IMG/VR virus record: IMGVR_UViG_3300031707_000051
Span: 1 to 41,188 of that record
Origin: a virus
Strand: one strand, 5' to 3'
Length of the DNA stretch: 41,188 bases
Shown: in pieces, positions 2,314 to 40,100 of the stretch
Numbering within the stretch: the stretch's first letter is position 1
How the letters are laid out: each line of letters opens with the position of its first letter
The notes under the pieces: model-generated
What the model was told of the DNA's origin: nothing
The model's input: the letters and a program-made list of their open reading frames with translations, nothing else
Databases searched by the model: none
Translations under genes and position numbers: made by a program

Positions 2314-3459
2314 ATGGAAAAGAAATTCCCCACATTGTACGGATTGTCCTCAAAGGGCGTTGTGAAGTCGTGGAAAATCTGGGTTGCTGAATTCCCTCTT
2401 GAATCTGCGATCATGGTGGAACACGGACAGATTGAGGGAAAGAAGCAGCTTGCTGTTGAAACAATCCGTGAAGGGAAGAACATCGGGAAGTCGAATGAAA
2501 CGTCTCCCTTTGAGCAAGCGGTTCTGGAAGCGGAGTCGAAGTGGAATAAAAAGCATGATTCAAACTATACAGAGTCTTTACCTGAAGGAGAAACGAACAT
2601 TGAACTGAAGTTACTTCCGATGTTAGCGAACAAATATAAGGAGCGTAAGCATACAATAGACTGGATGAATACCTTTGAGCAACCGAAACTTAATGGTTGC
2701 CGGTGTCTTGTAGAGCGCAGAAACGACAAGATCACATTTTGGTCGCGTAAGTCGAAGCAGTACAGGAATTTCAATCTGTATATGGAGCAAGAATTTTTGA
2801 GCTTCATGAAAAACGGAGATATTCTTGATGGGGAAATGTACAACCACAGAGATATTACATTTCAGGAGTTGATGTCCCTGATTACGGACGAGACAACACC
2901 CAACCTTGAGAGTTTGAAGAAGTATGTAAAGTTTCATTGTTATGATCGTCCCAGCGGAGATTTGGATTTTAGTAATCGTTATTTGAAATATAGGCATGAT
3001 ATTCCTAATGGATTGAACTACCTGCGATTGGTTGAGACGTTCAAAGTGACAAGCGAGAAAGATGTCGCTCTGCATCATGGACATTTCATCGCTGATGGAT
3101 ACGAGGGTTCCATCATTCGTTCTGGAAACGAACCCTATAAGTTCCAGTATCGTGCGAATCAACTCCTGAAGAACAAGGATTTTTATGATGCTGAGTACAA
3201 AATTATCGGATGTAAAGAAGGTACAGGTAAGGATGAAGGGAAAGCGATCTTCCGTTGTGTCACGGAGGAGGGGGTCGGGGGCATTACAGGCATAGGTGAC
3301 TTTGATGTGCGCTGCAAGGGAACGGATAAATACCGGTCTAAGCAGTGGGAGAATCGTCTAAAATACATTGGTGAAATGCTGACGGTACGATACCCAAGTT
3401 TCACCGACGACAAGATTCCGCAGCATGGAGTGGGCGTCATTGTGCGTGACTACGAATAA
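2314..3459 (+). CDS. ATP-dependent polynucleotide (DNA-type) ligase
   Basis: 381 residues. Covalent nucleotidyltransferase motifs appear in order: motif I K125-LNG in EQPKLNGCRC (K125 is the predicted adenylated lysine), motif III D172-G-E174, motif IIIa around FHCYDRP, motif IV EGSIIR starting at residue 264, and motif V LLKNK with K286 and K288. The first about 90 residues (KSWKIWVAEF ... GQIEGKKQ) resemble the WGR-like N-terminal domain found in some phage and large-virus ligases. The usual KxDG of DNA ligases is KLNG here. It seals nicks, most likely in DNA during replication or repair; an RNA substrate is possible given the RlaP and RtcB neighbours. Start ATG 2314 has AGGAG upstream. Confidence 0.85.
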   Translation: MEKKFPTLYGLSSKGVVKSWKIWVAEFPLESAIMVEHGQIEGKKQLAVETIREGKNIGKSNETSPFEQAVLEAESKWNKKHDSNYTESLPEGETNIELKLLPMLANKYKERKHTIDWMNTFEQPKLNGCRCLVERRNDKITFWSRKSKQYRNFNLYMEQEFLSFMKNGDILDGEMYNHRDITFQELMSLITDETTPNLESLKKYVKFHCYDRPSGDLDFSNRYLKYRHDIPNGLNYLRLVETFKVTSEKDVALHHGHFIADGYEGSIIRSGNEPYKFQYRANQLLKNKDFYDAEYKIIGCKEGTGKDEGKAIFRCVTEEGVGGITGIGDFDVRCKGTDKYRSKQWENRLKYIGEMLTVRYPSFTDDKIPQHGVGVIVRDYE

Positions 3460-3679: not shown

Positions 3680-4033
3680 GTGAGAGCTAATAACTTTTTG
3701 CTTGAATTCAGCCCTATTAGCTTTGCGCGATGGTACCATCCTTCTCAGCGTGATTGGGTTGAGGTGCAGTACATCGCAAGGTTTGGAAATCCAGTCTCAA
3801 CGGAGCGACGATGTTACGAATGTTATGTTGGTATTCGTTATACTTACGAGAATGACGGGGATGAAGTATATTCCTATGAGTGTGACGCTTGCGACGGCAC
3901 AGGAAGAATGATGAAGCCCACTGAGGAAATACTTGAGGAATACGCAAGAACGCTCTATAACAAATTCGTTGCTGATGACTACGCTGCACTCAATCTATTC
4001 TTAAAAGAACAGGGACCAAAATATGCCGTATAA
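3680..4033 (+). CDS. Small Cys4 zinc-finger protein (DnaJ-type knuckles)
   Basis: 117 residues from GTG 3680, preferred because AGGA/CAGGAA lies upstream and it avoids a 52-base overlap that the earlier in-frame GTG at 3614 would cause. Two zinc knuckles are visible: C45-x2-C48 and C68-x2-C71, the second as CDACDGTG, close to the CxxCxGxG repeats of DnaJ. The rest is helical and acidic. Probably binds zinc; a chaperone or RNA-binding role cannot be decided. The stop overlaps the RtcB start by 11 bases, implying translational coupling with the RNA ligase. Confidence 0.65.
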   Translation: MRANNFLLEFSPISFARWYHPSQRDWVEVQYIARFGNPVSTERRCYECYVGIRYTYENDGDEVYSYECDACDGTGRMMKPTEEILEEYARTLYNKFVADDYAALNLFLKEQGPKYAV

Positions 4034-5198
4034 CACACTGCAATCATTCGGGGCTCCAATCAAGATTTGGTCCCCACTTGACAAGGTAGAGTCGTCTGCC
4101 TTGGATCAGTTGAAGGACACGTCTACGCTTCCATTCATGTTTAAGCATGGGATGGCTGTCATGCCAGACGTACACAGAGGAATAGGGGCTACAGTGGGAT
4201 CAGTTGTCCCTACAGTGGGCGCAATCACTCCGGCCTGTGTGGGAGTCGATATCGGCTGCGGGATGATGGCTGCATTGCTTCCGTTCAGGTCGAATCGTCT
4301 ACCGGATTCCTTGCAGGGTTTGTACGATGACATCTGCAAGAGGATTCCTGTAGGACAGGACATGCACAATCACGCGATGTTCAGTGGAGTTGATTCAGCG
4401 GGATTCTTGAACCTTCCAAAGAAGATTCAGGATGACTTTGAACGTGTCGTTAAGCAGATGGGTACATTGGGAGGGGGCAATCACTTCATCGAAATCTGCA
4501 TCGATGAGAATGAAAATGTGTGGGCAATGCTGCACTCAGGATCACGCGGTATTGGCAACAAGATTGGGAATTACTACATCGATCAAGCGAAGAAGATCAT
4601 GGAGATTGAGCAGATCAAGTTGAGGGACCCAGACCTTGCGTACTTGTTGGAGGGCACTCAGTTGTTCGATGAATACTGGCGCGACTTGCAGTGGGCGCAA
4701 CGATACGCGATGCAGAACCGCGAAGTGATGATGGAATTGGTATTACAGTCTGTTGGACAGACGATCTTTGGAGATGGAACAGTGAAGCCAGAACTGATGG
4801 TGAACTGTCACCACAACTATGCGGAACGTGAGGAGCATTATGGTGAAAATGTTATTATTACACGCAAGGGCGCTGTCCGTGCTCGCGTTGGTGACTTTGG
4901 TATTATCCCTGGATCGATGGGTACCAAGTCGTATATCGTCGAAGGTTTGGGGAACGTTGAGTCGTATTGTTCGTGCTCACACGGTGCGGGTCGTGTCCTA
5001 TCACGCGGCAAAGCGAAGAAGCAGTTTACCTTAGAGGATGTTGAGAAGCAGACTGCGGGAGTTATGTGCCGGAAGGATGCGGGGATTATCGATGAGTTGC
5101 CGGGGGCCTACAAACCTATAGACGAAGTTATGTCAAATCAATCGGACCTTGTAAAAATTGTGGCAACGCTGAAGGGAGTGCTGTGTATCAAGGGGTGA
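4023..5198 (+). CDS. rtcB: RtcB RNA ligase
   Basis: 391 residues, a normal to slightly short RtcB. Diagnostic motifs in order: MPDVHRGIGATVGSV, GVDIGCGM with metal ligands D76 and C79, GTLGGGNHFIE, HSGSRGIGN, NCHHNYAERE, and SHGAGR with the guanylated histidine H320. RtcB joins RNA 3'-phosphate or 2',3'-cyclic phosphate ends to 5'-OH ends using GTP and Mn2+, as in tRNA splicing and repair. All key residues are present, so the enzyme should be active. No archease cofactor gene is seen in the window. Neighbouring RlaP, ligase, zinc protein and tRNA genes suggest repair of cleaved tRNAs. ATG 4023 overlaps the preceding gene. Confidence 0.96.
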   Translation: MPYNTLQSFGAPIKIWSPLDKVESSALDQLKDTSTLPFMFKHGMAVMPDVHRGIGATVGSVVPTVGAITPACVGVDIGCGMMAALLPFRSNRLPDSLQGLYDDICKRIPVGQDMHNHAMFSGVDSAGFLNLPKKIQDDFERVVKQMGTLGGGNHFIEICIDENENVWAMLHSGSRGIGNKIGNYYIDQAKKIMEIEQIKLRDPDLAYLLEGTQLFDEYWRDLQWAQRYAMQNREVMMELVLQSVGQTIFGDGTVKPELMVNCHHNYAEREEHYGENVIITRKGAVRARVGDFGIIPGSMGTKSYIVEGLGNVESYCSCSHGAGRVLSRGKAKKQFTLEDVEKQTAGVMCRKDAGIIDELPGAYKPIDEVMSNQSDLVKIVATLKGVLCIKG

Positions 5199-18009: not shown

Positions 18010-20070
18010 TTAGGAGTGTGCCCATGATCTGTCTATACTCCTCAAATAGCTCGATTCTTCGCTTCGTGCGGGGGAAACTCCTTGTGAGACATTAGTGATG
18101 TTAGAATTGTTGTTCCTGACATTATTGATGATTGTCGCTCCACCCCCGCTTGTTGCAGGTGAAAGTATAGAATTTCGCTGAGCATCCGCCGCTCCAATGA
18201 GTTTCATTCCCGTGGAGGGATTGGGTGCAGGAACCTCGGAAGGTGCGACTGGGGTTGCCGACACAGTGGGGACAGTGATATCTTCTTTGTTTTTAGAAGG
18301 AGTTGTTTCTGGTGCACCTGTCTGAGCCATCTGTGAGGTCTCTGGGGTTTGTTCTGGTGCGTTCAAGAACGCCTCTGATAATGCAGAGGATGCTTCCTTT
18401 GCAAGAGCAAGTAATCTAGGTCCCCTGTCAGGGTCAGTGAGGGGATTCATTGGTTCACCCTTTTCGTCCTTATACAAATCCCCATAGGCAGAATTGACGA
18501 GTTCTGTCAGTGCCCCAGTTGCCGCTAATGCTACGCTGGCCCCAGTGCCGACTCCAGGGACAAGGCTTGCTGCCCCAATAATGCCGTTAATAGCCCCACT
18601 AACATAATTCCCCTGTGCGAGATCATTTGCTGCGAGTGCGAGCCCGACACCTGGAAGTGCCTTACCCAATATTTTTCCTGCGACTTTTGGAACTAGAGAA
18701 CCAAGCACACCGGACACTTTACTTGAGGAAGCAACTTTCCCAACAACACTCTCAGATAATTTTGCACCCAAACTTTTTTCTACTCCCGCGACTGACTTTG
18801 TGGCTTTTAGTGTGATTTTCTTTGCAACTTTTTCGGTTGGTGCTTCTGCGAGTTTACCCGCAATGGCTTCTGACCCCTTTTCACCAAACCCCAGCATCTT
18901 CTTAACACCATTGAGTAGTGAGGAGCCACCTTTCATCACGGCAGAACCAGTAGTCGCTATCCCCGAAAGCAAACCCTTCCCCAATGCAGCAATGATGCTC
19001 TTCAACGGAAGAAGGAACATCGTGAGTCCAGCACCTATGGAGGCGAGTGTGGGGAGAAGTCCTCCAAGACTCTCCGCAAAACTCTTTAACAAATTCCCCA
19101 CCGTGCTGAACATCTCCGATAGGGGGCTTTCCTTTACCGGCCTTTCTTCTGTCTTAGTAATTTGCTGTGCCGGGCTCTTATTCTTGAATCGTGCTTTATC
19201 CTCAGCCGCTTCATCTCTTACATGATCCCAATGATCCTTAGCAATCTTCACACTCATCGCTTCAAAATTCTCAATAGTAGTTAACCGTTTGAGCATTTGT
19301 GACAGAGTGAGAGACATTTTATCCAAGAGGGGAAGAGCATCACCACCCATTCCTTTTCCACCATGTTGCCGCGAAGGGGAACCAAATTCTTTACTTAATT
19401 TTCCCCTTCCGAAAAATGAGGATGGTATCCCCGCTTCGCTTGGAGCTAAATCGGCAAATTGTCGAATACTTTGTTCGTTGCGACCAGTGAGTTTTCCAGC
19501 TAGTGCAACAGCGAGTTTTGAACCACCAGTCAATTTCTTGACGATGTTCAGTGGGTCAAATTTGTGTTTGAACTGTGCAACCCTGAGACCAGCGGCGGCT
19601 TTTATGGCTCCACCAACTCCCCCACCCCCAGCTAAATGTTCAGCAGCAGCATCGGACAGCGTTGCTCCTTGCTGCATCTGTGTTTGACGGAGACGCTTCT
19701 GTAAGTCTTTTAGGAATGATTTTTGATCTTTGAAGCTCTCTTGTACACCCCTCTTCGGTTCAGACTTACTTTGATTTTCAATTCCCGTTCCCTTAGATTG
19801 AACAATAGCAGCAAGCTCTCTATTCATATCCGCAAACTCACTTCTCAGGCTGTCCAGGCCGTCATTCGTCTTCAGCGTAGCCCTTGTCTGTTTCTTTGTG
19901 GCTTTCGTCTGTTCATTCTGAGCGTTCGTTCGTTCCTTGTGTTCCCTTGCTTGCCGTTTGGACTCTCGTGACTCTTTCGCTTCAGCAGGGATGTTCCGCC
20001 TAGTGGTGGGTTTCTCCTTTGCGTCAACGGGGATAACAATGCGTTTCTTGGGTACTACTCTGTCAGCCAT
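18010..20070 (-). CDS. Tail tape measure protein (gp29 role)
   Basis: 686 residues on the minus strand. Charged coiled-coil N-terminus (residues 1-110, many Lys, Glu and Arg), Gly/Ala-rich stretches (AGGGGVGGAIKAAAG), hydrophobic segments (about residues 340-375 and 470-530), and a Pro/Thr-rich tail with NNVRNNNSNITNVSQG near the end. This composition, and its place directly downstream of the gp26/gp51 chaperone pair, fit a tape measure, which sets tail length and is threaded through the tube. T4 gp29 is 590 residues. ATG 20070 is preceded by AAGG. It is the last gene of the minus-strand tail operon. Confidence 0.82.
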   Translation of the reverse strand: MADRVVPKKRIVIPVDAKEKPTTRRNIPAEAKESRESKRQAREHKERTNAQNEQTKATKKQTRATLKTNDGLDSLRSEFADMNRELAAIVQSKGTGIENQSKSEPKRGVQESFKDQKSFLKDLQKRLRQTQMQQGATLSDAAAEHLAGGGGVGGAIKAAAGLRVAQFKHKFDPLNIVKKLTGGSKLAVALAGKLTGRNEQSIRQFADLAPSEAGIPSSFFGRGKLSKEFGSPSRQHGGKGMGGDALPLLDKMSLTLSQMLKRLTTIENFEAMSVKIAKDHWDHVRDEAAEDKARFKNKSPAQQITKTEERPVKESPLSEMFSTVGNLLKSFAESLGGLLPTLASIGAGLTMFLLPLKSIIAALGKGLLSGIATTGSAVMKGGSSLLNGVKKMLGFGEKGSEAIAGKLAEAPTEKVAKKITLKATKSVAGVEKSLGAKLSESVVGKVASSSKVSGVLGSLVPKVAGKILGKALPGVGLALAANDLAQGNYVSGAINGIIGAASLVPGVGTGASVALAATGALTELVNSAYGDLYKDEKGEPMNPLTDPDRGPRLLALAKEASSALSEAFLNAPEQTPETSQMAQTGAPETTPSKNKEDITVPTVSATPVAPSEVPAPNPSTGMKLIGAADAQRNSILSPATSGGGATIINNVRNNNSNITNVSQGVSPARSEESSYLRSIDRSWAHS

Positions 20071-20076
20071 GGTGGA

Positions 20077-20274
20077 TTACCTTATTGTGTTGAGTGCGTG
20101 AATCCGTGCGTTTTCTTTTTCAACCTTCTGAGTCACCAGTGAGAGATAGACTGCCCGTTCCCAGGGTACCATATTTTCTAGTTCTGAAATCGAGAACTTA
20201 TGATCCTGTACCAAAGCGAATGTTGTAGTAAAGTAATTCGCTAAATTATCATGGGACAGGGTTAAGCGAAAAAA
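20077..20274 (-). CDS. 51: gp51-like frame, probably made by -1 frameshift from gp26
   Basis: 65 codons in the -1 frame relative to gp26, beginning at the slippery heptamer and ending at TAA 20079-20077, six bases before the tape measure ATG. The frame contains no ATG, GTG or TTG in its first 20 codons, and an in-frame TAG lies immediately before it, so independent initiation is unlikely. The product has the block FSISELENMVPWERAVYLSL then a charged helix, resembling gp51-type tail assembly factors. Expression as a gp26-gp51 fusion would mirror the G/GT tail chaperones of lambda. Codons 1-2 (FF) are shared with gp26. Confidence 0.7.
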   Translation of the reverse strand, partial: FFRLTLSHDNLANYFTTTFALVQDHKFSISELENMVPWERAVYLSLVTQKVEKENARIHALNTIR

Positions 20275-21002
20275 CTATCGAGACCCTTCACAAGGATGTC
20301 CTCTTCGTAATTGCACTTTGGGCATTTGAAGTGCAATAGCATTTCGATCTTTGGCATCGTCTGGAAAAAATTATCTACTTTCGAGACCTGATCGTGCGTT
20401 AAACTTTCCATAAACTCTATCACATCTGCCTTTGGTTCATCTTTTGTGAGTACGAGTTTATCCTGATCGTTGATCGATTCGACACACTCAACAAGAAAAT
20501 CAAATGCTTCATTCGGTGGTAACTCTTCTCTGACTATGGTGCGGAAGGATTTGAATGTTGGATAGCGAAGCGTCAGCCCTATGGATTCAGAAAGTTGAAT
20601 GTGTTTGTTATGTCCTGGACCGAAAACTGGTTTAATGCTTAACAAATCCACTGGATATTCCGACATCGTGTTGCAGATGACACCAATTCCGGTATTAGCA
20701 TCTACGACATTCTGATTGCATTTGTATCTCAGGGTGATTTCTTCCCCCACACTACGAGCCCGTACATTCAGGAACAAGAATTCCACATCAAACAATGGAA
20801 GTTTATCAACATCAATATTCGAGATTGTGCCGACACAGTTCTCAAGAACCTGACGCGCAGTTTTTAGAATTGTATCAGTATCTTTTGACTGCATCGCAAT
20901 CATCAGTAGCTTTTCTTCTTTAACGAGCCAGGGACGGAAGGAAACTTTTATACCTGAAGGGCATGTGACATCGTATAAGGGAACGGTCAATTTGGGAATC
21001 AT
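20262..21002 (-). CDS. 26: gp26-like baseplate hub assembly chaperone
   Basis: 246 residues versus 208 in T4. N-terminal VPLYDVTCPSGIKVSFRPWL ... EEKLLMIA, central EFLFLNVRARSVGEEITLRY, and a C-terminal zinc-knuckle-like CPKCNYEEDI match the T4-type gp26 family. It helps assemble the baseplate hub and is the positional equivalent of tail assembly chaperone G. The gene sits between the tube protein and gp51/tape measure, conserving the T4 order 26-51-29. Near its stop lies a T TTT TTC slippery site. ATG 21002 is preceded by AAAGGTG. Confidence 0.85.
   Translation of the reverse strand: MIPKLTVPLYDVTCPSGIKVSFRPWLVKEEKLLMIAMQSKDTDTILKTARQVLENCVGTISNIDVDKLPLFDVEFLFLNVRARSVGEEITLRYKCNQNVVDANTGIGVICNTMSEYPVDLLSIKPVFGPGHNKHIQLSESIGLTLRYPTFKSFRTIVREELPPNEAFDFLVECVESINDQDKLVLTKDEPKADVIEFMESLTHDQVSKVDNFFQTMPKIEMLLHFKCPKCNYEEDILVKGLDSFFA
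20268..20274 (-). promoter_or_regulatory. Predicted -1 ribosomal frameshift site T TTT TTC
   Basis: On the minus strand the gp26 reading frame ends AGT TTT TTC GCT TAA, a classic X XXY YYZ heptamer in phase. A Shine-Dalgarno-like AAGGG (20288-20284) lies nine bases upstream, comparable with the stimulator of the dnaX -1 site. An imperfect stem just downstream (CGCTTAA with TTTAGCG) is weak. The -1 frame continues for 65 codons. Confidence 0.7.
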
Positions 21003-21024: not shown

Positions 21025-21663
21025 TTATGGAGTGCCCTGTGGACGTGCGGGTCCAAATTCTTTTATCGACGACTTAGTGGTGGGTAGTGAATCTTTGGGA
21101 ATCAGAGCGTTCCCCCCAGTTTCTAGCGAGTACCACTCATACGCTAGGTTGATTGTTGTGCGGTGCAGAGCATCTTCAGTCCATGACACGGGCATTTGAT
21201 TGACCGCGGTTGGAAACGCATTATACATTGTCCACGTCGCAATCGCACGTAAACTCGATAGGGGGTCTTTTTCATCCGTCAGCATAACATCATATTGAGT
21301 AAGAGTAACGTCTGTACAGGTTTCCCTTGGATAGGAAATAAGATTCGTACCAGAATTATATACTTGATCCATCCACAACTCAAAGAACCCACGAATCAAG
21401 AACTCTGCGGTTTCAATAAAATTCAGGGTGATTTCCTGGTAGGACGATTGATAGGGAGTCTTGTATGATGGACCATAGGTGCGAGAATCGTTGGAAATGA
21501 TTTGGCGTCCTGGAAGGTCAGCAGTCTCACAGCGCAAACCTAATAATTTGTTCATAGTCAGCCCCGATCCCTGAAAGGGGGTAACGGACAAGCGGAAATG
21601 GGAGGTTTTTGCAACCCCATAGCGTTTGATAAAGGAGAGAAATTCAGTATTATTTCCGGCCAT
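21025..21663 (-). CDS. Tail tube-like protein (gp19/gp54 family)
   Basis: 212 residues. The pattern LRCETADLPGRQIISND ... YGPSYKTPYQSSYQEITLNF ... RGFFELWMDQVYN ... DVTLTQYDVM ... ATWTMYNAFPTAVNQMPVSW is that of T4 gp19-type tube proteins. The length is above T4 gp19 (163) and below T4 gp54 (320), so it could be the main tube protein or the tube initiator gp54; the position near the tape measure and gp48 allows either. ATG 21663 overlaps the preceding gene by one base. Confidence 0.82.
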   Translation of the reverse strand: MAGNNTEFLSFIKRYGVAKTSHFRLSVTPFQGSGLTMNKLLGLRCETADLPGRQIISNDSRTYGPSYKTPYQSSYQEITLNFIETAEFLIRGFFELWMDQVYNSGTNLISYPRETCTDVTLTQYDVMLTDEKDPLSSLRAIATWTMYNAFPTAVNQMPVSWTEDALHRTTINLAYEWYSLETGGNALIPKDSLPTTKSSIKEFGPARPQGTP

Positions 21664-22310
21664 TATTGCTCCTGTTGCTTTTTGAAAAAACCTTCTCTCT
21701 GTTTCCTGAGATGCCTAGCATATTCCTTCTCTCGACTATCCTTCCACACAAATTCTTTCTCAATGTGAGCATAATTCTGTACGGGGAGTGCCGCTGCCAC
21801 GTCCCACTCTTCGGGAGGGATTTCCACAAAGTGGGTGAGGATGTGCGCCGATAAATAGCGTTTAATACAGGGGATCGCTCGATACAACACGGGCATCGAC
21901 TTTAGTAACGGATAGGAGAGCCGCAGGCGAGTCTGTTCATCAGTCAAGGAACCTGTTGCAAAACGACGCAACTGTGACAATAAGATCAATCTATCTCTTG
22001 GATGTAAATAATGAAGATTCAGTCCAAGAAAACCATCTGGGTATTCCTCTATGGGAATAACCATTGGGAACCTATCCCAGTATGGAAGAATATTCCTTGT
22101 CTTGGCAAAATACCCGAAGAAATAGAACCGCCCAATCATAGATACTTCACGTCGCCGAATTTTGTCAAATAATATGTCTTGTCGTTCTCGTTCCCCAGGA
22201 TTCAGTTTAGCCATCTTCTGAAGCAACCAGGATCGCCCGAACGCAGCGGTGGTGTCTAGATTCTTTTTATCAACTTGAGTTTTAATTTGGTCGAGTAATG
22301 ATCCTATCAT
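21663..22310 (-). CDS. Conserved T4-like virion-associated protein, function unknown
   Basis: 215 residues. The central block GRFYFFGYFAKTRNILPYWD then FPMVIPIEEYPDGFLGLNLH and YLHPRDRLILLSQL is highly characteristic of a protein found in many T4-like phages near tail or head-completion genes, usually annotated only as a structural or hypothetical protein. No enzymatic motif is visible; the C-terminus is basic (RHLRKQREGFFKKQQ). It starts at ATG 22310, exactly where transcription from the TATAAATA box at 22323-22316 should begin, implying a leaderless late mRNA. Confidence 0.8.
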   Translation of the reverse strand: MIGSLLDQIKTQVDKKNLDTTAAFGRSWLLQKMAKLNPGERERQDILFDKIRRREVSMIGRFYFFGYFAKTRNILPYWDRFPMVIPIEEYPDGFLGLNLHYLHPRDRLILLSQLRRFATGSLTDEQTRLRLSYPLLKSMPVLYRAIPCIKRYLSAHILTHFVEIPPEEWDVAAALPVQNYAHIEKEFVWKDSREKEYARHLRKQREGFFKKQQEQ

Positions 22311-28334: not shown

Positions 28335-30380
28335 ATGTCTGAACAACTCCTCATATCGGACCTCGATTTTGAAACTATTAAGACAAACCTGAAGACATTC
28401 CTCAATTCCCAGAAGACATTCCTCGATTACAATTTCGAGGGTTCTGCCTTATCTGTGCTGATAGGACTTCTCGCTTACAACACACACTATAACGGGTTCT
28501 ATGATAACATGGTGGCAAACGAACTTTTCATCGACTCTGCCCAAGTACGCAACTCGCTCTTGTCTCATTCCAAAGCACTGAACTATACTCCCGTTTCTCG
28601 TAGAGCACCCACTGCGATTGTTGATCTGCTTGTTACACCACCGGGCGGGAATACTCAGGCGATTCTTACGTTAGATCGTTTCACTGAATTCCAATCGGAG
28701 GCTGTTGATGGGGTCAACTATACGTTTGTCAATGAAGGGGCGATGACTATTTTCAAGGATAATGGAGCATTTCCATTCAAAGGTATTGAGATCAAAGGGG
28801 GTACTCCACAGTTAGCCACATTCACGTTCGATCCAATCAGTAACCCCGCTTCGCACTTTGAACTTCCAAATGACGATATTGACACCAGTACGTTGTTAGT
28901 GATTGTCCAAACTTCCAGTATCAATACTGCCTCAGAAGTCTTTCAGCTATCTACGGATATCACCGATTCAACCGCAAATACCGCGGTGTATTATTTGAGT
29001 CCTTCAACCAGCAACAGGTATCAACTGACGTTTGGTGATGGTGCTATCTCAAAAGCATTGAGTGCGGGAAACATAGTACTTGCGAGCTACATCACGACTG
29101 TTGGGGTGATTGCGAATAAAGCAAACGTGTTTGCAACGGGTTCTATAGGGGGATGGTCAAACGTCATTATCACCCCCATCTCTTCAGCATCGGGAGGAGC
29201 AGAACGCGAAACCGACGATTCGATTCGTGAAAGAGCGCCCCAGTCTTACACTTCGCAGGGACGCGCCGTGTCTGTGAAGGATTATGAATCCCTATTGAAG
29301 TCTTCGTATCCAGACATTTCAAGTATTTTCGTGTGGGGTGGAGAGGACAATATTCCCCCCGTCTATGGTAAAGTTTTCGTGTCAATTGCTCCTAAAGAGG
29401 GGGTGTTCATCAACGATGCGGAGAAGAATCGTATCGAGATAGAGATATTGGGTCCTCTTCGAGTTGCGGGGATCACTCCAGTCCTCGTTGATCCAGACTA
29501 TGTATATTTGAAATTTGAAACCATTGTCGATGTGGATAGTAAATTTACCCTACTCACCTCTGCTGCAATATCATCGGTTGTGCGTACAGCAATTGTGACA
29601 TACACAACTCAGACGTTTAATCAATTTGGGGCGATTTATTCGGACTCGAAACTCAGTAGACAGATTGACGATTCTCTAGGCTCTTCAACTATTATCGGGT
29701 CTGGAACAACGGTACGATTAGAGAAACGGTTCATTCCTACGCTGAATGTTCGTTCTACCTATACGATCAATTTTGCAACTGAGTTGCATCATGCCGCAAT
29801 TCAGAAGGCGATCAAATCTAGCGCATTATCGGCGTATGATACTAGGAACGTCTTACGCACAGCGTATTTGGAAGAAGTATTTAACTCCTCGACTGGAGTT
29901 GACTCAATTTCAATCACAAATCCGGGGTATAATTACGTTGAAGCACCAACAGTAACCATCACAGGTGATGGGTCGGGAGCAACCGCCACTTCCACCATCG
30001 TTAACGGGAAGATCAATACGATCACGATAATCAAGCGCGGAACGGGTTATACGTCTGCAATTGTCACGCTGAGTGGAGGGGGAGGACAAGCGGGAGCCGC
30101 GTCTGCAATCGTACAAGCGAAGTTTGGTACGATGCGTCTGTATTACTTTAACACCAACTCAGAAAAAGTGGACATCAATTCAGCCATCGGTACAATTGAC
30201 TACCTCAACGGAATTATTGTCATTAAGGATTTGACTGTGGTTAAGGCTCTTTCGGAAACCAACGATATTCGGGTGAGTGCAGAACCAGAATCCGCCATCG
30301 TTGAAACACAACAGAATCAACTTCTCCTTCTTGACACGGATGACCCTACCTCGATTTCTATAACTGTTGTTATGCGGTAA
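28335..30380 (+). CDS. 6: gp6-like baseplate wedge protein
   Basis: 681 residues versus 660 in T4. The N-terminus (DFETIKTNLKTFLNSQKTFL, DYNFEGSALSVLIGLLAYNT) and the middle block GGAERETDDSIRERAPQSYT ... SVKDYESLLKSSYPDISSIF are typical of baseplate_J-like gp6, which forms the inner ring dimers of the wedge. Residues about 526-597 hold a Gly-rich beta module (NPGYNYVEAPTVTITGDGSG, RGTGYTSAIVTLSGGGG) also seen in gp7, gp8 and the 2085-residue protein; it is absent from T4 gp6 as far as I recall. ATG 28335 follows the gp25 stop by one base. Confidence 0.92.
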   Translation: MSEQLLISDLDFETIKTNLKTFLNSQKTFLDYNFEGSALSVLIGLLAYNTHYNGFYDNMVANELFIDSAQVRNSLLSHSKALNYTPVSRRAPTAIVDLLVTPPGGNTQAILTLDRFTEFQSEAVDGVNYTFVNEGAMTIFKDNGAFPFKGIEIKGGTPQLATFTFDPISNPASHFELPNDDIDTSTLLVIVQTSSINTASEVFQLSTDITDSTANTAVYYLSPSTSNRYQLTFGDGAISKALSAGNIVLASYITTVGVIANKANVFATGSIGGWSNVIITPISSASGGAERETDDSIRERAPQSYTSQGRAVSVKDYESLLKSSYPDISSIFVWGGEDNIPPVYGKVFVSIAPKEGVFINDAEKNRIEIEILGPLRVAGITPVLVDPDYVYLKFETIVDVDSKFTLLTSAAISSVVRTAIVTYTTQTFNQFGAIYSDSKLSRQIDDSLGSSTIIGSGTTVRLEKRFIPTLNVRSTYTINFATELHHAAIQKAIKSSALSAYDTRNVLRTAYLEEVFNSSTGVDSISITNPGYNYVEAPTVTITGDGSGATATSTIVNGKINTITIIKRGTGYTSAIVTLSGGGGQAGAASAIVQAKFGTMRLYYFNTNSEKVDINSAIGTIDYLNGIIVIKDLTVVKALSETNDIRVSAEPESAIVETQQNQLLLLDTDDPTSISITVVMR

Positions 30381-30385
30381 GAACT

Positions 30386-32719
30386 ATGGCTAATACATTA
30401 TCTCTCATAGTACGCCAGCAATTACCTGAATACATAAGATCAGAATATGAAACTTTTGTTCTGTTCGTAGAAGCCTATTTTGCCTGGATGGATAAGCCAG
30501 GTAATACGACGAACATTTCCAAGAATATGCTCAGTAATATGGATTTGGATACCACACAACTTGATGATTTTATCACCTTCTTTACGAAGCAATTTCTTCC
30601 GCTCTTCCCCCCTCAATATCTCACGAATCCCACCTTCTTTATTCAACATGCGAAGGAATTCTATCGTGCAAAGGGAACGAATAAGTCGGTGAAGCTTCTG
30701 TTCCGCCTACTTTTTCAACAAGACATCGATATATTCTTTCCAAAGGACAGCATTCTTCGTTCCTCTGAAAGCGGCTGGAAACAGTCACGCTCTCTACGTC
30801 TGGATGGAACAATGTGGACGATTCAGGTAGCCGATGGGATCACTAAACGCTTCCGCGCACTGGATACCTCTCGCACTGTGACACCGTCCCTCTATCTTAA
30901 TGGGGTTTTACAAACACTGAACACCCACTATACACACAGTACCAATGAACCCTGGTTCTCGTTTCTGTCTACACCAACAGTAGGTTACGAGGTGAAAGCC
31001 GTCTATCAGGGAACTGATTTTATTAGTCACTTTGGAACGAATGAAATCGTGACGAAGTTTGTTGGTCAAACTTCAGGAGCGAGCGCGATTTCTGAAACTC
31101 TTCAGCAGGTCACAGAAGATGGAATCACACAACTGGACCTGGAGGTCACAAAACCGCTTGGAATTTTTTCACAGTTTGAACTGGTGAGGGGACGCTGGAC
31201 ATATGATGTGAATGCTGCCCAACATCTCGATATCTACGGTCAGTTGGTCTCCTATCTCAGGGATATTGTAATTGTCGATGGTGGAACACGATATAATGTG
31301 GGTGATACTGTTGTCATTAGTGGTGGATTTCCGGTAATCTCCGCCACTGCGACTGTTGACTCAATTTTTTCAGCACTCATCTCCAATATCACAGTTCTCG
31401 TTGGTGGTGCTGGCTATCAACCGGGACAGTCCGCTTATATCACTTCGACTCCGAACACAGGACTCAATGCGTTTGTCCTCTCTGTGGACACTTCAGAAGC
31501 AGTGCACCCCAATTCCTATCCCATGAATCAAGATGTTTTGACGCTGTGGGCTAACACGGTCATGTCTAATAGCGACTACTACTTCACTTCATCAGTCAGT
31601 GAGAATGTCAATAGCTTAATGAGTATTGCATTTACGGATTTCTTGTTTGGAGAACACCCGATTGAACGATTGGGGCCTGTGTCATCCTTGACGATCACTA
31701 GCAGCACGCAAGTATTCAATCCAGCACCAACACTCGCAATTGATCCTCCCATTGTCCATGTGACAGGGATCACGGCGAACGGTGATACGGCAACAGCAAA
31801 TGTCTCGCTTGCGTATTTCGGGATTCTCGGTAAGATGAACGTGCGTAATGGAGGATCGAACTATCAAGTGGGCGATGAAGTCTCCTTTGAGAACATTCCA
31901 GGGGTCGGGCTAGGCATAGGAGCGGCCGCAGAAGTCACCAGTCTCCATGTAGCGAACACAGGCATTAAGACTGTGAACTTCCGTCCATCACGACTTACGG
32001 GAAATGTCACGGTTAATACAGCAGTGTCCAACGTGCAAGTGGTGGGAACAGGAACATTCTTTACAACTGAATTGGTAGCAAACGATCACATTGAAATCAA
32101 CAGTGAATCGAGCTATGTATCCACAATTATCAACGCAACACATTTAACTGTCAATACCGCGTTCACTCGCAATTCAACTAGCCGACGACTTGGAATCTAT
32201 GGACGTTATTTTGTGGGAGGTATGAACTATCGACAGGAGGCATTACCCACAGTGCGCGTCTCTTCAAATGAAATTACAGCAATAGGGGCAGATGTCGCGG
32301 TTGATCTTGTATTGTCTGGAGGAGCTTCCTTCCTTTTGGAACCGCAGACTCAGGAACCAATTGGAAAAATCAAAACTATTCGTATCACAAATCACGGCTA
32401 TGGATATCAGTCACCCCCTGTCATTGACTTGACGGGTAGTGGAAATGGCAAAGCCAATGCTATCGCCGTCATGTTGAGCAATCTCTTTATAGCACCAGGA
32501 CGTTTCACCACGACAGAAGGATTCTTGAGTTCAGATCGAAAGCTTGAGAATGATGGTTATTACACGACATATTCCTATGTCGTAAGAGCGGAAACAGAAT
32601 TAGCAAAGTATAGCGGAATCCTCAAAGACTTGACGCACCCAGCGGGCATGAAGCTTTGGGGAGAATACGTGATTAGCGATATTGTCACACAAAACTCCAT
32701 TTCCGCACAGAGCGTATAA
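30386..32719 (+). CDS. 7: gp7-like baseplate wedge protein
   Basis: 777 residues versus 1032 in T4. N-terminal helical part (YETFVLFVEAYFAWMDKPGN, FLPLFPPQYLTNPTFFIQHA, KSVKLLFRLLFQQDIDIFFP) and a C-terminal end (ELAKYSGILKDLTHPAGMKL) are typical of far-T4 gp7 proteins. The middle is beta-rich with at least three copies of the Gly-rich module (starting near 31264, 31840 and 32368, for example HGYGYQSPPVIDLTGSGNG). It links gp6, gp8, gp10-type and gp53 in the wedge. The stop TAA is inside the next late box. Confidence 0.82.
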   Translation: MANTLSLIVRQQLPEYIRSEYETFVLFVEAYFAWMDKPGNTTNISKNMLSNMDLDTTQLDDFITFFTKQFLPLFPPQYLTNPTFFIQHAKEFYRAKGTNKSVKLLFRLLFQQDIDIFFPKDSILRSSESGWKQSRSLRLDGTMWTIQVADGITKRFRALDTSRTVTPSLYLNGVLQTLNTHYTHSTNEPWFSFLSTPTVGYEVKAVYQGTDFISHFGTNEIVTKFVGQTSGASAISETLQQVTEDGITQLDLEVTKPLGIFSQFELVRGRWTYDVNAAQHLDIYGQLVSYLRDIVIVDGGTRYNVGDTVVISGGFPVISATATVDSIFSALISNITVLVGGAGYQPGQSAYITSTPNTGLNAFVLSVDTSEAVHPNSYPMNQDVLTLWANTVMSNSDYYFTSSVSENVNSLMSIAFTDFLFGEHPIERLGPVSSLTITSSTQVFNPAPTLAIDPPIVHVTGITANGDTATANVSLAYFGILGKMNVRNGGSNYQVGDEVSFENIPGVGLGIGAAAEVTSLHVANTGIKTVNFRPSRLTGNVTVNTAVSNVQVVGTGTFFTTELVANDHIEINSESSYVSTIINATHLTVNTAFTRNSTSRRLGIYGRYFVGGMNYRQEALPTVRVSSNEITAIGADVAVDLVLSGGASFLLEPQTQEPIGKIKTIRITNHGYGYQSPPVIDLTGSGNGKANAIAVMLSNLFIAPGRFTTTEGFLSSDRKLENDGYYTTYSYVVRAETELAKYSGILKDLTHPAGMKLWGEYVISDIVTQNSISAQSV

Positions 32720-32722
32720 ATA
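32715..32722 (+). promoter_or_regulatory. Late promoter box TATAAATA before gp8
   Basis: Perfect T4 consensus overlapping the gp7 stop codon; +1 near 32728 gives a 15-base leader containing AAGGA before ATG 32743. Confidence 0.8.
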
Positions 32723-32742
32723 GAACACTATAAGGAACTGCT

Positions 32743-34074
32743 ATGCCAAATTCGATTTCTAGGCGTCTTGGGTATGAAGGTGCCTACAATTTCTTCAATA
32801 GTCTTTCTACTTCATCTCCTGACGCCCTAGTAGGTTACGTGATGCTTGGTCGCAGTGTCGCATGGCCGACTGCCAATGACGTTCCCCCCGCGATCTACGA
32901 TACCGAAAACACTCTTTTCGACACTTTCAATAATTTCCTCGGTGGGAAGCGAATCACGGGTAACGATGTTGCCCTCGTGCTTCCCCGTGTCAACTGGACA
33001 GCGAATATCCGATACACCCAATACGACGATCAGAGCAATACATTATTTACGTCATCCAATGCGATGTATGCGTACACATCCACCGGTAGTGTCTATAAAT
33101 GCCTCAACAACGGCAACAATTCCCCCTCGACAATTGAACCTGCCGGGAACTACACTAGCGCGAATGGATTCATCAGTCCCGGTGATGGTTATTTGTGGAA
33201 ATATATGTTCAAGGTTCCAGCAACGAGCAAGTTCCTGACTTCAGCGTGGATTCCCGTTCCAATCACCCAGTCGGCTGCATACTTCGGGTTCGCCAACAAC
33301 ATCGTGAGCGGGGCTCTATCTAGACTCCAGGTGAGCGCAAATGGGTCAGGATACTATCAAGTCAATACCACGGTGGTTATCACTGGTTCGGGGACTGGAG
33401 CGAATGGGACACCAACTGTAACGACTGGGAACCTAGTTTCCGTTGCTCTATCCTCTCATGGGTCGGGATATGCTCGACAAAACGTGAAAGTCTCTGTAGC
33501 GGGTGTCGGAGCGAATGCGGCTGTTCGTGCAATTCTGTCTCCGTTTGGGGGTCATGGATTCAATCCTGCTAGAGAATTGGGATCGAACAGCATTATGCTG
33601 TCAGTGCAGATAGGGTTTCCTGATACGACAGAGGGTGCGACGATTACTTCTAATAACGACTTCCGACAAGTTGGTGTGCTTCTGCGTCCACATAAATATG
33701 GTGAGAACACTGCGGTTACGTCGGCTAATGCAAATGTTGCAGTTACGATGGTTATGCAATTGCTTTTGACTTCTGGTCCTGGATACACGAAAGATGAGCT
33801 TGTCTACCAGGGAACGACGGTCGCAAACGCGACGTTTTCTGCAAATGTCTCGGATATCTTCTCTAATGCAGTGGAAACCGCAAATGTGCAAGGATACCCG
33901 ATTGCTGGGTCCGTGCTCACGGGGAATACTTCAGGAACAGTCCGTACAGTGATTGCATTCACAAACCCAGGACTAGCTGAAGAATCGGGAGATTTGGTCT
34001 ACACAGACAACCGTGCTGCCGTCTCTAGAGCACCGGGGCAGTCCGAAATTATCAACATCATACTCAATTTCTGA
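32743..34074 (+). CDS. 8: gp8-like baseplate wedge protein
   Basis: 443 residues versus 334 in T4. N-terminus FNSLSTSSPDALVGYVMLGR ... WPTANDVPPAIYDTENTLFD and the block SVYKCLNNGNNSPSTIEP ... GFISPGDGYLWKYMFKVPAT are diagnostic of gp8. The extra length comes from an insertion at about residues 192-266 holding two Gly-rich modules (NGSGYYQVNTTVVITGSGTG; HGSGYARQNVKVSVAGVG). gp8 dimers connect gp7 and gp10 in the wedge. Confidence 0.92.
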   Translation: MPNSISRRLGYEGAYNFFNSLSTSSPDALVGYVMLGRSVAWPTANDVPPAIYDTENTLFDTFNNFLGGKRITGNDVALVLPRVNWTANIRYTQYDDQSNTLFTSSNAMYAYTSTGSVYKCLNNGNNSPSTIEPAGNYTSANGFISPGDGYLWKYMFKVPATSKFLTSAWIPVPITQSAAYFGFANNIVSGALSRLQVSANGSGYYQVNTTVVITGSGTGANGTPTVTTGNLVSVALSSHGSGYARQNVKVSVAGVGANAAVRAILSPFGGHGFNPARELGSNSIMLSVQIGFPDTTEGATITSNNDFRQVGVLLRPHKYGENTAVTSANANVAVTMVMQLLLTSGPGYTKDELVYQGTTVANATFSANVSDIFSNAVETANVQGYPIAGSVLTGNTSGTVRTVIAFTNPGLAEESGDLVYTDNRAAVSRAPGQSEIINIILNF

Positions 34075-34112: not shown

Positions 34113-37100
34113 ATGTCTATAGATTTTTCACAGAACCCATATTACGAGGATTTCGACCCGAAGAAGAATTTTCATAGGATTCTTTTTCGTCCGTCTTTAG
34201 CTGTCCAGTCTCGTGAATTGACACAGGCACAGACAATTCTCCAAGACCAAATTTCCAAATTTGGAACCAGCATCTATCAGCAGGGTTCGATTGTCACGGG
34301 CGGGCAAACCATGCTGGAAAGCACTGCGACAAAGTACGTCTGTATCGAAGCGACTGAGCCAAATGGTTCGGCTGTTGATGTTAATAATTTCATCGGGCAT
34401 TTCCTTATCGATACCGAAACGACTCCTGCTGGCGTTCGCGCTTATGTCATAGCGGGTGCTGCGGCGACCATCACTTCCCCCACCGTCTTGATTGTCAAGT
34501 ATACGTCTGGACAACACTTCTCCAATACCCTGTCACAGCCTTTTCAGACAGAAGATGCTACACACAGCGCAACACTACTGTCAAGTTTGTCAGGATTCAC
34601 AGATGTTACAAGCAACACAGTTGTTGGAGATGCGTCTATTTGCAGTATAGATGAGGGAGTATTTTACGTTGACGGATTCTTCGTCCAAGTTTCTCCGCAA
34701 ACTACGGTGCTCAATGCGTTTAACAATACCCCCACCTATCGTATAGGATTGCAAATAGAGGATAGTATTGTTGATGAGACTCAGGATGCGTCTCTGTTGG
34801 ACCCCGCTCAAGAGTCAACCAACTATCAAGCACCAGGCGCTACTCGTTATAAGATTTCCCTTGTACTTGTTAAGCGTTCCTTGACTTCTGAAGATGATAC
34901 AAAGTTCATTGAACTCATACGTGTTACGAACGGTACACTCACGAAAAAAGTCGTGTATCCTGTATACTCTGCCCTAGAAGAGACTTTGGCACGTCGCACG
35001 AACGATCAGTCGGGCTCTTTCACTGTTCGTCCATTCAAGATTGCGACAATTCCTCACGCCACGTATGCGAATGCCTACAATATTATCATTGAAGCTGGTA
35101 AGGCGTATGTTCAGGGATACGAGTATGAAACTATCGGACCTACGACAATCAAGGCGGAGCGGGCTCGCACCGCAGCGAATGTCACAAACTACAATAGCAC
35201 AATTGACTATCAGAACTGGCTCGAAGTCACAGAAATGGTGGGACCAATTCCTTTTAAGACCCTGCAACCATGCGTTCTACATTGCGTCAGCACAGCAAAT
35301 ATTGCAGTCTCAAACGCAGCCGTTGCTGCAAACACGACGATTGGTACTCTCCGTATTCGTGCGCTTGATTATCAGAGTGGTGCAAATGGCACTTCCATCA
35401 GCACAGCAGTATGGAGAGCGTATGCGTTCGATGCCAATGTGGGGGAGAGCCAAACATGTAACTGCGGGAACACCGGTTCTGCGAACACGATGTTCCTCGC
35501 CACGAACTTCTCATCAATTGCTAATGCGTATGTTGGGGTGAAGTTCACGATCACGACTCATGCTGGAATTGCAGTCAACGAAACACACACGATTGGACGT
35601 TACGAGTCGAATAATAAAGCGTATTTGCAGGGTACGGAAACTTTTGCGTTCGGTACTCCTACAACTGAGACTAAATATCGTCTTGACTATGAATTCAAAG
35701 ATGCAGAGTCCCTTGTCTACGCGAACACGTCAGTCAATCAACATCTTTTCTCAACGACAATGGATGTAAATTCATCCAGTAAAAATGCGCTGTATATAAA
35801 CGGTATTCTCTCAGACCCCTATGAGGGAACCTTTCTTAGTGATACTGGATTTAATCGTCTCATCATGGAATTGCCATATCCTACAATTGCAGATCAATCA
35901 GTAGTTGGTGGATCACCGCTGACAAACACGGAATACTTTGGACGTAAGAGCTACGCTGGACAGTCCTTTACCGCAAATGTCACAACGATAACCAGCGCGG
36001 CTGGAATCACCTCAGCGGTTAATGGGTCGCTATCTGGTTCTGATGCCATCGATAACATTCTCGTTGTGGTGAAAAACAACACAGGTACACCAATCGCAAA
36101 CAATCAAGTCATCAATTTCTCAACAGGAAATCCACAAGGCAACACCGTTGTAGTCAGTACCGTGAGCAATACATCCACATGGGTTATCACTGTACCTAAT
36201 ATGAACAGCGCCTCTTCCGCTGATGTCTACGTAAAAGTTAAGTTACCCTATTCTCATGCACTTGGAAGCTTACTCAAGAGTAAGACTGCTAGAATCGCAA
36301 ATACTGCAAGTGGATTGAATTCTGGTGGAACGCGCATTTCCGATGCAACGGGATTGGTGCAGTGGTATTCACAGGGGTCGGGAACTCTCGGTGCACAAAT
36401 CACGATCTACGCGAATTCTGCTGCATGGCTTAATCTTAAAGACCCAAGCAAATCTCAGTCCTTATTCACTTCCGATGTGACTGCACTTCGCAAGGTTATC
36501 GACGTTGGCTCCAATCTTATTGAAGATGGCAATGTAGCCATTGCTGCGGATATCACCAGTCGTTATACATTGGATAGTGGGCAGCGGGACAACTCCTACG
36601 ATCACGCTTCAATCACACTGAAACCACAATCACAGGGTCCAAGTGGAAATGTGGTCATCTACGTTGACTTCCTGACGCATTCGGGATTGGGATATTTGAC
36701 AGTGGATTCTTATGCGTCGGCCAATATCGCGTATGGTAATATCCCCTCCTACACTTCCGCGTCCACAGGACAGGTATTTAATCTACGTGATTGCATCGAC
36801 TTCAGACCGCGCAGACAAGATGCCGACTATAATAATATCTTCGATGAAGAGGTGTTTGGTATTTCTGGGCTCACTTTCGAGACAGACTTCTCCTACTATC
36901 TCGCACGTATCGATAAGATCACACTCACGAAGGATCGTAAATTCGAAGTCTTGTCTGGTGTGCCGTCATTGTTCCCTGTCAGCCCATCCGACAAAGATAA
37001 TTCCATGACTTTGTATACCTTGGTACTTCCACCCTTCACGAACACTACAAATGAAATTCGTCAACGCTACGTGGACAATAGACGCTACACGATGCGTGAT

Positions 37101-40100
37101 ATTGGTTCGCTTGAAAAGCGTATCTCAAGCTTGGAATACTACACATCTTTGAACTTGCTCGAACAAACCGCTAAGAATCAAGAAATCACTGATGATACGG
37201 GTGCGAACCGTTTCAAGAATGGTATCCTCGTTGATCCATTTACCGGACACAAGATCGGGGATGTCTTGAACGTTGACTATCTCTGTTCTATGGACCCGCA
37301 GAATCAGGAATTGCGCCCAGCTTTCATTCCTCGCAGTCTCCACTTAAAGTTGAGCGCAACGAATTCCTCAAACTATGCACGCATTGGTGCTTTCTTGACG
37401 CTTCCTTACACGGTAACGACGTTCCTCGACCAGTCGATTGCATCAAAGTCTATAAATGTAAACCCATTCAACACAGTCTCATTTATCGGACAAATCAAAC
37501 TTGACCCAACTTCCGATAACTGGGTTGACAGAAATCAAGCCCCTGATGTCAATGTTAATCTTGAGGGGGACAAGGATGCGTGGGAGGCACTTGCATTCAC
37601 TGTCAACAAGACCGCCGCTCAGCAGAAGTTTGGAGAAACAACGTTCGGAACAACCTGGAATGATTGGAAAACGTCCTTCTATGGAGAGAAGCAACAGCCT
37701 GATAAAGTTCTTGTCCCAGGATGGAGAGGTTGGTTGGGACCTGTAGGACACTATATTCCTGTTTTTGGTAACGTCATCAAGCGCAGCACGACGGAAATTA
37801 CACAGACTCAATCACGATCTGGAACGAAGAATCAATTTGGGTCCGAGGTTGTCACGGAATCTATTGGTAACAAAGTCAAGGATGTCACAGTCATACCTTA
37901 TATCCGCTCACGCGGTGTATTGTTTGTCGGAAAAATGTTCGCACCAAATACGAATCTTTATGCCTTTTTCGATGAAACTGCGGTGACAAATTACTGCAAC
38001 CGTCTAAATGTCGTTAAAGTTTATGACACGAGTGCTGTTTACAGGGACAACTACCAGGATGCCGAAAGTGTGCGCGTTTGGGACCCAGCGAGAGGAGCAA
38101 ATTCCGCCTTTGGGACCGTGGTCCTCAGTCGTAGGGAACCCACGTACACCAACGTCAGCCTCGTAAGTGTCACAGGTGGAGATGATGATAACGTGGCGAA
38201 TGCGTACTTCATGCACTCAACCAACTCAACCTTCTTGATTGGGGAAACGAGTGGAGCAAACTCACGTATCTCTGGATACTACCACAATACGGGATTTGCA
38301 CAGAATGGTAACGTCAGTAGCATCCTCTTAGCTCATGATGTGGCTAATTCCAATGTCGCGTTCTCCAATACTTTCCTAGTTGGCAAGTCGATTTACTTTA
38401 CATCTGGAGTTGGACTTGGGCAATCTTCCGTCATCACAGCCTACAATGCGAATACACGTAATGTGTCGTTCAGTCCTACGTTGACCACAGCACTTGGAGT
38501 GAATTCTTCGTACTCAATTGGTCAATTCCAATCGGATTATCGTGGTGAATTTGGAGGTATCTTTGTCATTCCTTCTACTGATGCGATCAGATTCCGAACT
38601 GGAGATCGACAGTTTACCTTCGTCGATTCCTTTTCGGGTTCACTTGAGGGGTCGGGTACAAATGGATCGGTGAATTATCAAGCATCAGGTCTCTTACAGA
38701 CCCTTGAGAACACGATTATTTCCACTCGCGTACCTAGTGTACAACGCACTGTCTTGAGTGAAGCCAAGACCACCCTGACGAATAAGATCACAGATGTTGC
38801 TATCGGAAGAATCCAAGTAGGATACTGGGACCCCCTTGCCCAGACATTCTTAGTCGATCAGACATTCCACCCATCGGGAGTTCAGATTACTGGTGTTCGC
38901 CTGCTCATTAAGACGACCGATCCCAACATTCCACTGCAACTACAACTTCGTCCTGTAGTCAATGGATTCCCGCACTCCTCCGCTGTTATACCAGGCTCCG
39001 ATTTGGTATTGAACGCAGGCGATATTGTTACCTGTTCTGAAGAAACCTTGGCTGCGAAATATCTCGCTGGAGGCAACCCCCTCGACGATGCCACAATGTA
39101 CACACAAGCTAATTTTAGCGGACCAGTGTTCCTCCAGCAGGGGGCAGAATACTGTATCGTGCTTATGGCTAACTCCGTGAAATATGCCGTGTACGTATCA
39201 CGTATGGGAGATAAGATTCTGGGAACTGAACGCTTGATTTCCTCACAACCATATCTTGGGGTGTTGTTCAAGTCTCAGAACTCGACAACATGGAATCCAA
39301 TCCAAGAAGAGGATTTGACGTTCCGTTTGCTTTATGCACAATTCGACAAGACCGTACAATCGAATGTTGAATTCCAATTAGATGCCGCGAATGCAATAAC
39401 CGCCAATGTGCCTTTGGACACGTTCTATGTTTCATCGGGAAACCTTGTACTACCAAATACAAGCATCGATGCGATGTTTGCAACGACAACTGCCGCGGGG
39501 GTGAAAGAAGGTAATAAGATAATCCCATTAGATGAAAACATTTACTTCGATGATACGTTGGGTCGTCGTGTTGCATCCAGTTCCACTTCCTCGTTTAAGC
39601 TACGACTCCTACTCTCCTCCGCGAGCGTTGATGTGTCTCCGGTGGTTGATATGGACCGTCTCTCATTGTTGGGCATCGAAAATCTTGTGAACAACCTCGA
39701 ATTGAGCAATAGTTCAGTTGTCGTTATTAGTTCCAGCAACAATTGGTTTAGTGCCGCGGGTCTCTCTGTCACTATCTCAGGTGGGGGAGGAAGTGGAGCG
39801 AATGCCTATATTGCGAATACCCAAATCGACAGCAACAACCATGTTCTCGCCAATGTCGTTGTAGATTCCAATGGAAGCGGATACACGTCCTCACCAACGA
39901 TCACGATTTCGGGAAACAGCAGCATCACCGCAAATATTCAGTGCATTGGAGAGGATCGTTCTTCGGGTGGACCCGCGTTTGCCCGTTATATCACACGCAA
40001 AGTCACATTGGCTGATGGATTGGATGCAGGAGATTTCCGTGTATTCTTCGCAGCGTACAAACCCTCTACCGCGAATATCTATGTCTACTATAAGATTCTT

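Follow-up and report, generated by a model that had tools for sequence, protein, structure and literature searches.

Evidence from related phages for a probable −1 ribosomal frameshift that would append a gp51-like extension to gp26 in a viral tail assembly chaperone gene

In the lambda model of tail assembly, the tape measure protein has two chaperones that bind it, one short and one long, and the domain encoded in the −1 frame of the long form recruits the tail-tube subunit (PMC5009743). The same 2016 review excepted T4 from the tail frameshift rule. The tail assembly chaperone (TAC) genes of T4-like phages have since been identified (Vladimirov, Gautam and Davidson 2022, Virology 566:9-15, cited in PMC10885494 and PMC12846349). 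Citing that work, the PRFect paper (PMC10885494) states that in some T4-like phages a short TAC gene is accompanied by a long, fused one, and PMC12846349 mentions polyT slip signals in T4-like TAC-N genes. Thus, according to the citing papers, the gp26/gp51 arrangement was already known from the 2022 description, and the frameshift presented here is a new sequence of that arrangement; the author of the first-pass annotation of this DNA had been aware of no description for the T4-type gp26/gp51 pair.

The window, by which we mean the whole 41,188-nt stretch of DNA from a T4-like virus that was analysed, resembles the T4-like TAC genes as cited in its T-run slip signal and in its putative short and long TAC forms; some T4-like phages have two separate genes. 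Its probable −1 shift at a T-rich site ending TAC-N also has a counterpart in the TAC frameshift of Vandenendeviridae, a different phage family in which PMC12846349 gives the motif as GTTTTT. In contrast, the lambda gpG/gpGT and P2-type tail frameshifts (PMC5009743) are unrelated or very distant in sequence from the window, where the slip site is T_TTT_TTC. The −1 signal of Escherichia coli dnaX (PMC3711429) has an SD-like element, a slippery heptamer and a downstream hairpin in the same order as the T4-like family, but lies in another gene and uses another heptamer; moreover, the SD-like element of the window is weak and the hairpin type varies among relatives. The accounts of T4-like TACs in PMC10885494 and PMC12846349 contain no mention of an upstream SD bias or of 3' hairpins, which the original 2022 paper may report; this stimulator pattern (5' SD, 3' hairpins) may therefore be a new detail.

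Comparison of the window with its relatives makes it very probable that a −1 ribosomal frameshift joins gp26 to a gp51-like extension, so that one TAC gene would be read in two ways, as a short TAC-N and as a fusion, TAC-NC. Most ribosomes would end at the gp26 stop and yield the short form, whereas a minority, slipping one base backwards at U_UUU_UUC, would produce a gp26-gp51 fusion of 308 residues. If the two forms work as lambda gpG and gpGT do, the tape measure protein, whose gene lies just downstream, would be coated by the gp26 part, with the gp51 part serving to recruit tail-tube subunits. We infer the slippage itself, its ratio and the G/GT-like roles of both forms. The features of the locus, from 5' to 3' on the minus strand, are:

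21025-21663, minus strand: tail-tube-like gene, 5' of gp26 (phrog_45, 5e-32)
20262-21002, minus strand: gp26 (TAC-N), zero-frame product of 246 aa (PF12322, 6.5e-53; phrog_150, 3.6e-59)
20284-20288, minus strand: SD-like AAGGG, 9 nt 5' of the heptamer (GAGGG in relatives; window copy not above the synonymous null)
20275-20277, minus strand: TAG in the −1 frame, directly 5' of the heptamer (from the sequence)
20268-20274, minus strand: T_TTT_TTC, the slippery heptamer, in the gp26 reading phase as X XXY YYZ (from the sequence and family conservation)
20077-20274, minus strand: gp51-like −1 extension (TAC-C), 65 codons plus TAA (phrog_634, 3.9e-23; frame −1 in 186/186 loci)
20262-20264, minus strand: zero-frame stop of gp26, TAA (from the sequence)
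20252-20260, minus strand: 5' outer arm of the predicted hairpin, CCTGTCCCA (folding against synonymous recodings)
20236-20242, minus strand: 5' inner arm of the predicted hairpin, AGCGAAT (also in loci L002 and L003)
20215-20221, minus strand: 3' inner arm of the predicted hairpin, ATTCGCT (also in L002 and L003)
20205-20213, minus strand: 3' outer arm of the predicted hairpin, TGGTACAGG (predicted folding)
18010-20070, minus strand: tape-measure-like ORF of 686 aa (by position)

The product of gp26 passes the curated cut-off of PF12322 in a profile match (180 bits vs 24.5). The 3' end of the gene reads directly as AGT TTT TTC GCT TAA on the minus strand, with the in-phase heptamer that the first-pass annotation had placed there. 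The −1 frame holds 65 sense codons, including the two Phe codons of the slip site, is translated as FFRLTLSHDNLANYFTTTFALVQDHKFSISELENMVPWERAVYLSLVTQKVEKENARIHALNTIR and stops at a TAA (20079-20077) six bases (20076-20071) before the ATG at 20070. Its match to phrog_634, named 'baseplate hub assembly catalyst' (gp51), bears out the gp51-like character assigned to it on first reading; the product also matches phrog_150, the gp26 family, at positions 231-279 (3e-5). Because the in-frame TAG abuts the heptamer, the −1 frame is unable to start further upstream, and its earliest ATG, GTG or TTG is a TTG at codon 21, as expected from the earlier statement that the first 20 codons contain none.

The extension had further been described as lying just before the tape measure gene. 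A long ORF does follow it in the window, as it does in 159 of the 186 loci compared below, and the ORF of the window resembles its counterparts in L002 and L003; its identity as the tape measure is called from position, since the ORF matched neither PHROG nor Pfam families, and we refer to it as tape-measure-like.

Elsewhere in the window, the plus strand encodes an ATP-dependent DNA ligase (2314-3459, phrog_114), an RtcB-like tRNA splicing ligase (4023-5198, phrog_1075, 4e-140) and a 2085-aa protein (34113-40370) with matches to DUF4815 and to phrog_358, a family of unknown function. Several baseplate-region genes on the same strand (28335-34074 and 34113-40370) have in common a stretch that matches phrog_460 ('head closure Hc2') and is possibly a repeated accessory domain.

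A DNA-level search of phage records returned no match, and relatives were found through protein searches. Contig scans and annotated records together gave 186 loci with a placeable gp26 part and a placeable gp51-like part; this set excludes T4 and a Tulanevirus, where the two are separate genes. The gp51-like frame was −1 relative to gp26 in every locus, including those of annotated phages of Kyanoviridae, Pootjesviridae, Straboviridae and other families. Four contigs with 60-67% identity (L002-L005, of which L003-L005 share a single junction sequence) retain T_TTT_TTC, the adjoining 5' TAG and the extension.

After clustering at 85% nucleotide identity, 141 non-redundant loci remained. An in-phase T_TTT_TTN is present at the end of gp26 in 139 of them, whereas codon usage for the encoded protein would predict about 58 (log10 P = −54, with loci treated as independent although they share ancestry). 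The sole exceptions, Vibrio phage K445 (L019) and an Ackermannviridae locus (L020), retain a gp51-like −1 extension without the canonical heptamer. In one genome, taken alone, the heptamer is weak evidence: the window genome contains 47 in-phase XXXYYYZ motifs in 11,627 codons, and 5 of 34 genes have one near their end. It is the homology of the −1 frame together with conservation across relatives that places the frameshift signal well beyond chance, and the gp26-gp51 fusion by −1 shift advanced in the first-pass annotation stands as the best explanation. A second T_TTT_TTC, 28 nt before the gene 2 homologue ends (21663-22310, minus strand), was considered as another candidate and rejected; relatives lack it, and it therefore looks like chance.

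The choice of codon within the slip site is also informative. Where the second slip-site codon encodes Phe, it is TTC in 116 of 136 cases, compared with 30% elsewhere in gp26. TTC leaves the frame 0 product unchanged, yet its C opens a CGN Arg codon, the third codon of the −1 frame. Since the bias preserves a −1-frame Arg ahead of any ATG, it supports translation of the −1 frame starting at the slip site.

The slip site is flanked 5' and 3' by conserved RNA signals that probably promote frameshifting. On the 5' side, pairing with the 16S 3' end at positions −17 to −6 averages −7.18 kcal/mol in the family and −5.18 kcal/mol in synonymous recodings (z −17), and windows further upstream gave no comparable effect. 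The SD-like element has the form GAGGG in the relatives, in which 95 of 115 Glu codons are GAG (p about 1e-33). As for the AAGGG noted on first reading nine bases upstream of the heptamer, its position and its significance across the family hold, but the window copy itself is weak, and its pairing does not exceed the level expected from the protein sequence alone (−3.9 vs −4.0 kcal/mol).

On the 3' side, predicted folding is more stable than in synonymous recodings of the −1 frame, with a family mean z of −2.03 and 54% of loci below −2; in the window, the predicted hairpin has an MFE of −14.0 vs −5.9 for the recodings (z −3.8). An 11-bp predicted stem following the heptamer after a 5-nt spacer, hairpin A, occurs in 43 loci, whereas slid-partner controls found 0-2 loci, and its pair 20/34 is found as TA, AT and GC, that is, in compensatory types. 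The predicted hairpin of the window differs from hairpin A in being two-part and is common to L002 and L003.

Alternatively, gp51 could be a separate gene with its own start codon, translationally coupled to the gp26 stop. Database records do annotate gp51 at early ATGs, and in 93 of 139 relatives the ten or so codons after the slip site include an ATG, often just past the gp26 stop. However, these early ATGs are nearly devoid of SD (mean upstream pairing −0.70 kcal/mol vs −3.53 at gp26 starts), and in 29 of the 139 loci, among them the window, the first 15 −1-frame codons are free of start codons. Furthermore, a separate gene does not explain why the heptamer and the third −1 codon are conserved, and we consider it very unlikely as an account of the arrangement, although some separate gp51 could be made from the early ATG in those 93 relatives. 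The junction comparison suggested in the first-pass annotation, which had looked to an independent gp51 start without a conserved slip site as the contrary outcome, thus gave a conserved heptamer and, in many relatives, a nearby ATG that nearly lacks SD and falls inside the 5' arm of hairpin A in 42 of the 43 loci with that stem.

Transcriptional slippage of RNA polymerase along the T run, which is always at least 6 T long at the slip site, could instead change the frame. Yet TTC is preferred over TTT as the second Phe codon, keeping the run short, the run holds codon phase, and the SD-like element and hairpins lie at spacings typical of ribosomal frameshifting, all of which make polymerase slippage extremely unlikely. 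A sequencing error or broken gene, conceivable for a window that is a single metagenome-derived record, is refuted by the 186 loci, drawn from many records, that conserve this arrangement, and can be considered practically nil.

The reading of gp26 as a tail assembly chaperone is compatible with its predicted structure. The AlphaFold model of the window gp26 (pLDDT 92.5) aligns over residues 1-95 to 2ob9 (HK97 tail assembly chaperone), 3fgx and 3klu at Z of about 7, a range (below 8) in which a score can mean a mere common arrangement; the next hits were at 4.3 and 2.7. We take 3klu to be YqbN, a prophage tail protein of the tail assembly chaperone kind. Foldseek alone gave no match of the model in the PDB at E < 0.001, and a sequence profile search against solved structures also gave none. 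The modelled N-terminal domain of gp26 may thus have a TAC-like fold.

In T4 itself, gp26 and gp51 are homologous (2e-6), and the extension profile matches residues 200-244 of T4 gp51 (3e-5) with no match in T4 gp26. Given this homology and the presence of the extension in gp51 only, the short and long forms seem to be encoded as separate genes in T4, with gp51 as the long TAC form and gp26 as the short one. Genes 26 and 51 are reportedly the T4 pair in the description by Vladimirov and colleagues, who are also reported to have described frameshifting for other groups of T4-like phages.

The view of gp26 and gp51 as two TAC forms finds support in the arrangement seen among relatives. In many records, gp51 is annotated as a gene of its own with an unlikely start, and these annotations could be corrected. 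It is an evenly balanced proposition that T4-like phages carry a conserved three-part signal, consisting of an internal SD, T_TTT_TTC and a lineage-specific 3' hairpin, that would tune the ratio of short to long chaperone, and that in one clade the hairpin would also hide the early ATG, such that gp51 would be made only as a fusion. These 5' and 3' signals would offer an explanation, open to experimental test, for what sets the ratio of the short and long forms.
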